From the NCBI GenBank assembly GCA_020444265.1, contig JAHLLH010000006.1:186001-250000 (forward strand): a stretch of DNA of 64,000 bases, written 5' to 3'. The notes beneath the pieces were generated by a model. That model was not told the origin of the DNA, ran no database searches, and worked only from the letters and a program-made list of their open reading frames with translations. Origin of the DNA: a bacterium (GTDB lineage Bacteria; Electryoneota; Electryoneia; Electryoneales; Electryoneaceae). The translations under genes were made by a program, and so were the position numbers. Every line of letters starts with the position of its first letter. Position 1 is the first letter of the stretch. Below, one piece after another: positions 33,372-37,968 of this stretch.

Positions 33372-34433
33372 TTGACTGCCAAAGGTGCGAAGCGCAGTTA
33401 CCGTCTCACCCAGTTCACACGATGCGCTGGTTGAGCCAGTAAACTGGATCCGGCGGTGCTGGATCGTCTGCTGCCACAGCTTCCAAAAACGGACCACCCC
33501 AACCTGATTGTCGGGCCATCTTCGCTGGACGATGCCGGTGTGTTTCGCTTGAGCGATACACTGGCATTGGTGCAAACGGTTGATTTCTTTACACCGATTG
33601 TCGATGACCCCGCCGATTACGGGCGGATTGCGGCCGCGAACAGCCTTTCGGATGTCTACGCGATGGGTGGAACTCCGATTACGGCCCTGAACATCGTCGC
33701 CTTCCCGGATGGAACAATCCCGGAAGAAGCGTTGGCTGAATTGCTGGTGGGAGCTGCGGAAATTTGTGAACTCGCAGGGGTGGCGGTTGCTGGTGGTCAT
33801 ACGGTTTCCGACCAGGAGTTGAAGTTCGGTTTGTCAGTGACTGGCACTGTCCACCCTGACAAACTGCTGACCAATAGCGGCCTGCGGCCCGGACAGCTTC
33901 TCTTCCTGACCAAACCGCTCGGCACAGGGCTGATATCGAATGCGATGATGAACGATGCCGCTCCGGCGGGATCGGTCGAGGCGATGATCGAAGTCATGGT
34001 CCGTCTCAACCGTGCCGCCAGCGAGGCAGCGCTCGCCGCACAAGCGACCGGGGCGACAGACATTACTGGCTTCGGTTTGCTTGGCCATGCACGTGAAATG
34101 GCCAAGGCATCCGGTGTCCAGCTTCTTATTGAGGCGTCCAAACTGCCGGTTCTCGATGCCGCACGGACCATCGCCGAATCTGGTTCCTATTACAGCGGTG
34201 GCGAGCGACGCAACCTTAGCTTTGTCGAGCGGGACGTCACCTTTGACGACTCCATTGATGAGGCAACAAAGAGGATTGTCTCCGATCCTCAGACATCCGG
34301 CGGCCTTCTGATTGGCATTTCCCCCGAGCACGAGAGCACGTTTCGGGAGAAGATGGATGAGGCAGGGGAAGAGGTTTGGATGGTTGGTCAGGTGGAACCA
34401 CTCACGGGTACATCTATCCACCTGAAGCGTTAA
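33372..34433 (+). CDS. selD: Selenophosphate synthetase with in-frame UGA (selenocysteine)
   Basis: SelD makes selenophosphate from selenide and ATP. A simple open frame starts only at GTG 33456, but upstream in the same frame the sequence encodes YRLTQFTRCAG, then TGA (33432-33434), then ASKLDPAVLDRLL. This aligns with E. coli SelD RLTQYSHGAG-C17-GCK20, so the TGA falls exactly on catalytic Cys17. The U-x-x-Lys spacing is kept. An 8-bp hairpin with a GGU loop follows. Later motifs are intact: SSLDDAGVF, DFFTPIVDDPADYGRIAAANSLSDVYAMGG, AGGHT, KPLGTG, DITGFGLLGH, DPQTSGGLL. The TTG at 33372 is the likely start (353 residues, Sec at 21). The frame is closed upstream by TAA at 33333, and the ribosome site is weak. 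Confidence 0.88.
33435..33465 (+). promoter_or_regulatory. Bacterial SECIS hairpin in selD
   Basis: Twelve bases after the UGA, GATCCGGC and GCTGGATC pair over eight base pairs (one G-U) around the loop GGU (stem 33447-33465). A short stem-loop close behind the UGA with G in the first loop positions is the described form of the bacterial SECIS element recognised by SelB. Confidence 0.8.
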
Positions 34434-34476: not shown

Positions 34477-35463
34477 ATGCTGCACGAAACGCCATTGATC
34501 CTTGTTGCCGAAGATGAGGAGGCAACCCGTTCCCTGATGGGGTCGATGCTCGAAAACCTCGGTTATCAACCCCTCCTGACCGCAGATGGTGTTGAAGCAC
34601 TTGAAGCGCTCGAAGTTGAACGTCCCGACCTGGTCCTTAGCGATGTACTGATGCCGAGGATGAATGGGATCGAGCTGTGTCGCACCATCAAAAGCAATTC
34701 AGAAACCCGTCTGATCCCCGTGGTACTTGTCACCGGTCTGGGTAGTACGGAAGACCGTGTCCGTGGTATCGAAGCGGGTGCCGATGATTTTCTCGCCAAA
34801 CCCTTCCAACTTGCCGAGCTAACCGCACGTTTACGTTCCCTCCTCAGGTTGAAACAGTTTACCGATGAACTGGTTCACGCGGAGGAGGTCATTTTCTCCC
34901 TCGCCCTTGCGGTCGAAGCGAAGGACCCGTACACACGAGGGCACTGCCAGAGGCTGGCACGCTTTTCAGTGGAAGCGGGGAAACGTATGGGGCTGGGTGA
35001 AGAGGAGCTGCAAGCGTTGCGACGTGGAGGCATCCTGCATGACATCGGCAAGATCGGGATTCCCGAAGCGATCTTGCTGAAAGCGGGACCCTTGACCACC
35101 GAAGAGATCGGGGTCATGCGACACCACCCGCTCAAAGGTGAACAGATCTGCAAACCTTTGCGCACCCTTGCTGGAACCCTCCCGATTATCCGTCACCATC
35201 ACGAGCGTATGGATGGGGATGGCTACCCGGACAAATTAAAGGGTGAGGAGATTCCGCTCGGGGCTCGTATCATCGCTGCTGTTGACTATTTCGATGCCCT
35301 CATCACCGATCGTCCTTACCGTAAAGCGCTGCCCCAGGAGGAGGCCCTGCGTCTCCTGCACGGTGCAGTCGACACCGGCCACCTCGACCGGGACATTGTT
35401 CAGATTGTCACCTCCATTGTTCACGAGGTCGGCGAGGAGTGGGTCGCTCCGCTTGATAACTGA
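34477..35463 (+). CDS. Response regulator with HD-GYP domain
   Basis: A 328-residue protein. The receiver domain (about residues 7-122) has phospho-acceptor Asp in DLVLSDVLMPRMNG, the acidic pair EDEE and Lys in AKPFQ. The HD-GYP domain (about 140-320) has GILHDIGKIGIPE, HHHERMDGDGYPDKL and AAVDYFDALITDRPYR. HD-GYP proteins hydrolyse cyclic-di-GMP, so this is probably a phosphorylation-controlled phosphodiesterase. It follows selD by 43 bases and precedes the Ppx-Nudix gene by 24, so the three may be co-transcribed. No cognate kinase is adjacent. Confidence 0.9.
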   Translation: MLHETPLILVAEDEEATRSLMGSMLENLGYQPLLTADGVEALEALEVERPDLVLSDVLMPRMNGIELCRTIKSNSETRLIPVVLVTGLGSTEDRVRGIEAGADDFLAKPFQLAELTARLRSLLRLKQFTDELVHAEEVIFSLALAVEAKDPYTRGHCQRLARFSVEAGKRMGLGEEELQALRRGGILHDIGKIGIPEAILLKAGPLTTEEIGVMRHHPLKGEQICKPLRTLAGTLPIIRHHHERMDGDGYPDKLKGEEIPLGARIIAAVDYFDALITDRPYRKALPQEEALRLLHGAVDTGHLDRDIVQIVTSIVHEVGEEWVAPLDN

Positions 35464-35487: not shown

Positions 35488-36939
35488 ATGTTTCCTGCTA
35501 TGAATGCTCCGGTCCGTGCCCTGCTCGACTTCGGAACCAACTCGCTTAAGCTCGTTGTCTGCCGTCTCAATCCCGAAGGATTGGATGTGCTACTGGACAC
35601 TGAACGGATCACTCGTTTGGGACACAATATCCTGCAGGACGGGAAATTGAGCGGGGACGATGTTGACCGTATCCTCACTGCTGTTGGCGAGCTGATCGGG
35701 GAAGCAAAGGCCTTTTCGCCAGACAGCATCGACGCCATCGGTACCGCTGCCCTGCGTAGATGCAGCAATCGCGACACCCTGACAGAACCGTTAATGGAGC
35801 AGTACGGCATCCGTCTCTTGATGCTGTCAGGCAGCGAAGAGGCGGTCGCAGGCTACCTGGGGGTGCGAAGCGAGTTCGGTTTGGAGGACTCTCTCGCCAC
35901 GCTGGACCTTGGCGGCGGCTCAACCGAAATCACCTTTGGACGAGACATCCTGCCGGGCCAATCCTTCAGTCTGCCAATCGGGGCACGTGGGCTGTTGCGT
36001 GATGTGCCGATCAGCGATCCGCCCCGGTACGAGGAAATCGAAGCGATCCGAAAGCAGGTACGTCCCAAACTTTCCGATGTTTCCCTGTTACCGATCGAGA
36101 CCAAGCTGGTGCTGATTGGCGGTGCGGCGACCACCCTCGCAGGCTATGCAAAAGAGATGTGGAATGCTCCCGGTGAGATTGTCGCAGATACCCTCACCCC
36201 GGAAGCCTTAGACCTGCTAACGATGAAGTTGGCAAAACTGACCCGGGAGCAGCGGCGCGCCTTACCCGGTTCGACAAAGGCAGACCGTAGCGATGTCATC
36301 GTGCACGGAACCGTTGCCCTGCGTGAGATGCTTGGCACCCTCGGGGTCGATACCGCCTGGGTATCGCTGCGGAGCCTGCCCCAGGGTCTCTTCTTTGCCG
36401 AGATGGAAGGGTTGATGCTCGACAGTGACGCCCCGGTCACACGACTTCCCGGCACCCACTTTCCTCCGCTCAGTAAATCGACACGGAAAGGGGAAGTGGT
36501 CTTCCTGCTACGTTTGCCGGACGGACGCTACTTCCTGCAGACAAAAGTGCGCTACTCCAACGATACCTATCGCATTCCCGGAGGCGGCGTCGATGCCGGG
36601 GAACGGTCCATCGATGCGATTCACCGTGAGGTGTGGGAAGAAACCGGGTACAAGCAGGCACGTCCACTACCTGTCGCCCGCCTCACCTTCACCGGCCCGG
36701 ACGGGACCCCTTGTGACTGGTACAGCGACCTCTACCTGGTCGATCTGCCCAAAGGGTTCGAGCCACAACCGGTAGACGAGAGCGAAGGCATTTCCGGTTG
36801 GGTCGCGGTCCACCCCAGCGAGATGCAACCCTGGATTGACCGCCTCGAAAACCTCGAAGGCGACTTGAATTCGTGGGGATATTTCCGCGCCGTCCCCATG
36901 CGTTACCTGGTCCGACGGGTGAGCGAAGGAAGATTGTAG
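35488..36939 (+). CDS. Ppx/GppA phosphatase fused to a Nudix hydrolase
   Basis: A 483-residue two-domain protein. Residues 8-310 are an exopolyphosphatase/pppGpp phosphatase of the ASKHA fold, with RALLDFGTNSLKL, AIGTAALR, LSGSEEAVAGY and TLDLGGGSTEITF. Residues 335-475 are a Nudix domain with an intact box, G366 GVDAG E372 to REVWEETGY388. No stop or frameshift separates them. Each half alone hydrolyses phosphoanhydrides (polyphosphate or (p)ppGpp, and nucleoside diphosphates). Fusion suggests a combined role in alarmone, polyphosphate or nucleotide turnover. ATG 35488 and ATG 35500 are both possible starts. Confidence 0.85.
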   Translation: MFPAMNAPVRALLDFGTNSLKLVVCRLNPEGLDVLLDTERITRLGHNILQDGKLSGDDVDRILTAVGELIGEAKAFSPDSIDAIGTAALRRCSNRDTLTEPLMEQYGIRLLMLSGSEEAVAGYLGVRSEFGLEDSLATLDLGGGSTEITFGRDILPGQSFSLPIGARGLLRDVPISDPPRYEEIEAIRKQVRPKLSDVSLLPIETKLVLIGGAATTLAGYAKEMWNAPGEIVADTLTPEALDLLTMKLAKLTREQRRALPGSTKADRSDVIVHGTVALREMLGTLGVDTAWVSLRSLPQGLFFAEMEGLMLDSDAPVTRLPGTHFPPLSKSTRKGEVVFLLRLPDGRYFLQTKVRYSNDTYRIPGGGVDAGERSIDAIHREVWEETGYKQARPLPVARLTFTGPDGTPCDWYSDLYLVDLPKGFEPQPVDESEGISGWVAVHPSEMQPWIDRLENLEGDLNSWGYFRAVPMRYLVRRVSEGRL

Positions 36940-37005: not shown

Positions 37006-37044
37006 TCCATTCATACAACCATAACGTTTCGACTTATTCCCGCC

Positions 37045-37968
37045 TTCGGCACGATACACGGGCAGGATGCCCGTGCTACACGGTGTCACCCCGGACTTGA
37101 TCCGGGGCCCAGCCTCAGATGATGAAGCAGTCTCACACAGTCCAATCCGAGGTCTCAAGGGGATGGCGTCGGCCGGTTCGAACCGCTCCTCCACGTTGCC
37201 CTCGCACAAGGCCGTCAGGGAGGCTCCTCACCTACGAAGGATGCTGGATCCCGGGTCGGGGCCCGGGATGACAGGTAGTCCGCTGAGGGGAGCAAACCAG
37301 AGAGCATTAGCCATCCCTACCCCTCTCGCAGGATCGCGCCCTCGGCACGAAGCACGGGCAGGATGCCCGTGCTACTCGGTGTCACCCCGGACTTGATCCG
37401 GGGCCCAGCCTCAGATGATGAAGCAGTCTCACACAGTCCAATCCGAGGTCTCAAGGGGATGGCGTCGGCCGGTTCGAACCGCTCCTCCACGTTGCCCTCG
37501 CACAAGGCCGTCAGGGAGGCTCCTCACCTACGAAGGATGCTGGATCCCGGGTCGGGGCCCGGGATGACAGGTAGTCCGCTGAGGGGAGCAAACCAGAGAG
37601 CATTAGCCATCCCTACCCCTCTCGCAGGATCGCGCCCTCGACACGAAGCACGGGCAGGATGCCCGTGCCACACGGTGTCACCCCGGACTTGATCCGGGGC
37701 CCAGCCTCAGATGATGAAGCAGTCTCACACAGTCCAATCCGAGGTCTCAAGGGGATGGCGTCGGCCGGTTCGAACCGCTCCTCCACGTTGCCCTCGCACA
37801 AGGCCGTCAGGGAGGCTCCTCACCTACGAAGGATGCTGGATCCCGGGTCGGGGCCCGGGATGACAGGTAGTCCGCTGAGGGGAGCAAACCAGAGAGCATT
37901 AGCCATCCCTACCCCTCTCGCAGGATCGCGCCCTCGGTGCGAAGCACGAGCAGGATGCCCGTGCCACA
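37045..37968. repeat. 296-bp tandem repeat, three full copies and a partial fourth
   Basis: Units start near 37045, 37341 and 37637, with a truncated fourth to 37968. The spacing is exactly 296 bases. The copies are virtually identical; the few differences cluster at the ACGGGCAGGATGCCCGT hairpin and just after it. Each unit contains that hairpin, then a GTCACCCCGGA...GGGATGAC inverted-end element like 24519-24703, then about 75 bases of spacer. The period is not a multiple of three and the frames run across unit borders, so it is not coding. Confidence 0.92.

Follow-up and report, generated by a model that had tools for sequence, protein, structure and literature searches.

Probable selenocysteine at the catalytic position of a selenide water dikinase from the phylum Electryoneota

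The selD gene of the window (the whole stretch of 64,000 nucleotides analysed here) very probably encodes a selenoprotein, with selenocysteine (Sec) inserted at an in-frame UGA codon at position 33432. The features on which this assignment is based are as follows.

33372–34433, + strand: selD, selenide water dikinase (selenophosphate synthetase), TTG start, predicted Sec21; TIGR00476, 368.6 bits.
33432–33434, + strand: UGA codon, probable selenocysteine (Sec21), equivalent to Cys17 of E. coli SelD; alignment, and TGA in 31 of 31 phylum genomes.
33447–33465, + strand: putative bacterial SECIS hairpin with an 8-bp stem and a GGU apical loop, which lies 20 nt past the UGA; covariation, codon control, and bSECIS model.
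33456–34433, + strand: open reading frame under genetic code table 11 (GTG start, 325 amino acids), without the catalytic residue; ORF calling.

The selD frame extends from the TTG at 33372 to a stop codon at 34431–34433 and encodes 353 amino acids when its sole internal stop, the TGA at 33432–33434, is translated as U. The initial annotation had carried the frame of selD through this TGA, and a single read-through frame was indeed recovered. The read-through protein scores 368.6 bits against TIGR00476, the SelD equivalog model, for which the cut-off is 125. Its N-terminal sequence is LTAKGAKRSYRLTQFTRCAGUASKLDP, or (M)TAKGAKRSYRLTQFTRCAGUASKLDP with the start codon translated as M, and its C-terminal sequence is HLKR. 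The TTG lines up with ATG starts, each opening an equivalent MT... leader, in five genomes of the same family (L040 and L046–L049). A weak AGG is the only upstream signal at the TTG, a point against the proposed reading of the gene. Under table 11 the open reading frame begins at the GTG at 33456, so the active-site residue is lost, as had been anticipated for standard gene calling. The annotation is corrected accordingly to include the first 28 residues of SelD, the catalytic one among them.

In a phmmer alignment to E. coli SelD (3u0o), residue 21, encoded by the TGA, pairs with Cys17, and the x-x-K that follows is kept; both the position and the U-x-x-K spacing proposed in the initial annotation are seen. 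In Cys-type SelD genes from elsewhere this codon is TGT or TGC, and both Sec and Cys forms of SelD occur outside the phylum. A motif scan found U at the SelD catalytic site in 23 of 80 named loci from genome contigs. Homologues of SelD in a plasmid collection are less than 60% identical. A scan of the window for CxxU and UxxC motifs caught selD through Cys18, and the other matches were judged by eye to be noise.

Within the phylum, SelD proteins over the family cut-off have exactly one in-frame TGA in 33 genomes, the source genome included. Direct reading of the codon at the catalytic position in 31 genomes, namely the source genome plus 30 more, gave TGA every time. One more SelD over the cut-off (G038) lies at a contig end that falls before the catalytic site. 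Five phylum genomes (G004, G007, G015, G029, and G034) gave no SelD over the cut-off, and three of them (G004, G007, and G029) likewise gave no SelB over the cut-off. G010, G011, G015, G016, G019, G022, and G025 each have two SelB genes that pass the family cut-off.

A hairpin of 8 bp with a GGU loop, GAUCCGGC-GGU-GCUGGAUC, is located at 33447–33465, starting 12 nt past the TGA and with its loop 20 nt past it, just as first described. It satisfies the published bSECIS model, which specifies a loop of 3–9 nt, an upper stem of 4–16 bp, a G within the first two loop positions, and a distance of 16–37 nt from UGA to loop (PMC13188914); no difference from the bacterial SECIS consensus was found. 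The folding energy of the single hairpin sequence of the window is unremarkable (z -0.93), and an Rfam search of the window returned no match. Support for the hairpin therefore comes from comparison across genomes rather than from single-sequence folding. Among SelD genes of 24 phylum genomes, 92.2% of cells in the helix are paired, and changes on both sides occur at four of the eight helix pairs. The following figures derive from sequences related by descent and are thus not strict probabilities: the covariation score of the helix is 0.368 as compared with 0.217 for shuffled sequences (0 of 500 shuffles reach 0.368), slid versions of the helix score 0.02–0.10 (maximum, 0.102), and 7.4 of 8 pairs are kept as compared with a mean of 5.2 and a maximum of 6.0 in 500 synonymous-codon resamplings that used each gene's own codon usage. 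The outermost pair (33447/33465) is conserved in just half of the genomes compared. The loop is GGA in 12 of the 24 hairpins, GGU in 11, and AGA in one.

The whole genome (4.33 Mb in 19 contigs, 94% complete) contains a full set of genes for selenocysteine insertion along with a second candidate selenoprotein gene.

C9:52221–53573: selA; 541.7 bits.
C12:162087–163949: selB, full-length, 654 amino acids; 331.5 bits, covering model positions 2–578 of 581.
C9:373165: tRNA-Sec, anticodon UCA; 59.3 bits as compared with a gathering threshold of 47, and anticodon TCA by ARAGORN.
G000:C9:733477–733686 (L174:1495–1719): SelW-like predicted selenoprotein with the motif CVVU; NF041051, 92.1 bits, cut-off 88.

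Absence of selA, selB, and tRNA-Sec had been named as evidence that would speak against selenocysteine, and all three are present in the genome. ARAGORN found no tRNA within the window, and tRNA-Sec sits on another contig. The SelW-like protein begins MDIHIEYCVVUNYY and scores above NCBIfam cut-offs. Its gene has a hairpin, CCGCCA-GGU-UGGCGG, with the loop 22 nt past its UGA; because the hairpins of both selD and this gene have a GGU loop, two unrelated selenoprotein genes share one apical loop. Each of the 17 Rdx/SelW matches in the phylum has one TGA. AhpD-like (CMD) proteins gave three matches in the genome, none with a TGA. The proposal that the organism reads UGA as selenocysteine is thus very probably right, given the machinery, the second selenoprotein, and the conserved TGA, and it places the organism and its phylum among selenocysteine users.

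Three other explanations of the UGA were weighed. It could be a true stop in a selD gene that is truncated or degraded and expressed, if at all, from the GTG at 33456, and table 11 does give an open frame from this codon. However, homology to SelD is retained upstream of the TGA (RLTQF..CAG), the frame has no further lesion, and the TGA is conserved in every phylum genome in which it was read; a truncated gene would also leave no reason for keeping a covarying hairpin. These observations make truncation highly improbable. The codon at 33432–33434 is known from the assembly alone, such that a sequencing or assembly error might conceal a TGC or TGT and hence a Cys-type SelD. Such an error appears very unlikely indeed, as independent assemblies of 30 further genomes of the phylum show the same TGA, it also occurs outside the phylum, and a SECIS hairpin lies behind it.

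The UGA could instead be decoded by other means, for example if the codon were generally reassigned to Trp or Gly, or by readthrough without Sec. A UGA followed by a hairpin is by itself compatible with readthrough, as in the SPS1-UGA genes of insects (PMC4561486), but no evidence in favour of such decoding was found. Against it, the genome has a specific tRNA-Sec(UCA), SelA, and SelB, table 11 gives long frames for other window genes, and the UGA sits on the column of the catalytic Cys; decoding as anything other than Sec is hardly credible.

With selenocysteine as the preferred reading of the UGA, the pathway can be outlined. SelD would convert selenide and ATP to selenophosphate, which SelA would use to convert Ser-tRNA-Sec to Sec-tRNA-Sec. 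SelB, bound to the GGU-loop hairpin, would then bring Sec-tRNA-Sec to the ribosome at UGA 33432, and selenocysteine would go in where Cys-type SelD carries its catalytic cysteine. Synthesis of SelD itself, and of one or more SelW-like proteins, would in turn require Sec-tRNA-Sec. Insertion of Sec, the enzymatic activity of SelD, and a dependence on selenium are predicted here from sequence comparison. The genome has one copy of SelD over the family cut-off, so the search turned up no Cys-type SelD to initiate the cycle. The suggestion that the organism needs SelD to make SelD would follow by logic from this single copy.

As to what the Sec system serves, a family search of the 94% complete assembly gave no match to a molybdopterin oxidoreductase, and therefore no FdhA. 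Selenouridine synthase (SelU) also had no match in the genome and none over the cut-off in the phylum relatives; weak fragments were obtained in three relatives. With neither FdhA nor SelU found, Sec use in this genome may therefore rest on SelD, SelW, and perhaps further families, few families having been searched. Sec-SelD has been suggested to sustain the Sec trait in organisms that lack FdhA, perhaps for selenouridine (Zhang et al. 2006, PMC1794560); the genome matches the FdhA-less part of this proposal, whereas the selenouridine part is inapplicable. The genome is a further example of a Sec user, here with no match to FdhA or SelU.

Seven members of a sister family (f2) in the same phylum encode a Sec-SelD with an N-terminal ferredoxin-thioredoxin reductase (FTR) catalytic domain (L066–L072, from relatives G023, G026, G031, G017, G020, G033, and G012). 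The domain scores 59.5 bits against PF02943 (cut-off 22) in the fusion scored, L067, and a CPC..CPC..C.C motif is present in all seven. The selB gene adjoins FTR-SelD in five of the seven genomes (G012, G017, G023, G031, and G033). SelD has been described as fused to NADH dehydrogenase-like or NifS-like domains, the fused proteins being SelD-Cys except for one NifS fusion (PMC4561486, PMC2398784). A keyword search of the main texts of PMC4561486, PMC2398784, and PMC13188914 found no mention of an FTR-SelD fusion. We consider it possible, though doubtful, that the Sec system of the source genome is kept by very few proteins, chiefly SelD and the SelW-like protein, with no part played by formate dehydrogenase or selenouridine, and that Sec-SelD of the sister family has gained an FTR domain. 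If true, the Sec system would be nearly circular, its main product helping to make itself, and the FTR domain may supply reducing power or selenide.

The genes next to selD in the window also encode fused domains. Directly downstream (34477–35463), a response regulator receiver is joined to an HD_5 (HD-GYP-like) domain, and two genes downstream (35488–36939) a Ppx/GppA phosphatase domain is fused to a NUDIX domain at its C-terminal side. A 296-bp tandem repeat (3.1 copies, 98% identical) occupies 37041–37968, and open frames run through its copies.

Sec-SelD is the second most widespread selenoprotein family in prokaryotes. Bacterial Sec-SelD that depends on itself has been known for a long time and occurs commonly. 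The principle is established, and the finding made here is right but ordinary in kind. Sec occurs in 19% of prokaryotic SelD genes, always at the same position (Mariotti et al. 2015, PMC4561486), and SelD proteins with Sec at the Cys17-equivalent position are found widely and have been well characterized in the literature (PMC4561486, PMC13188914). As in other bacterial SelD-Sec proteins, the product of the window gene belongs to the TIGR00476 family, has its predicted Sec where the E. coli enzyme has Cys17, is encoded with an in-frame SECIS hairpin after the UGA, and co-occurs with selA, selB, and tRNA-Sec. Nothing essential differs from these; the window gene has CAGUASK in place of AGCGCK and a TTG start, and its genome yielded no selenouridine synthase or molybdopterin oxidoreductase (FdhA). 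By sequence it is also the same enzyme family as E. coli SelD (3u0o), with which it shares the motif RLTQ....AG-[C/U]-x-x-K, but the E. coli enzyme has Cys17 at this position and needs no recoding.
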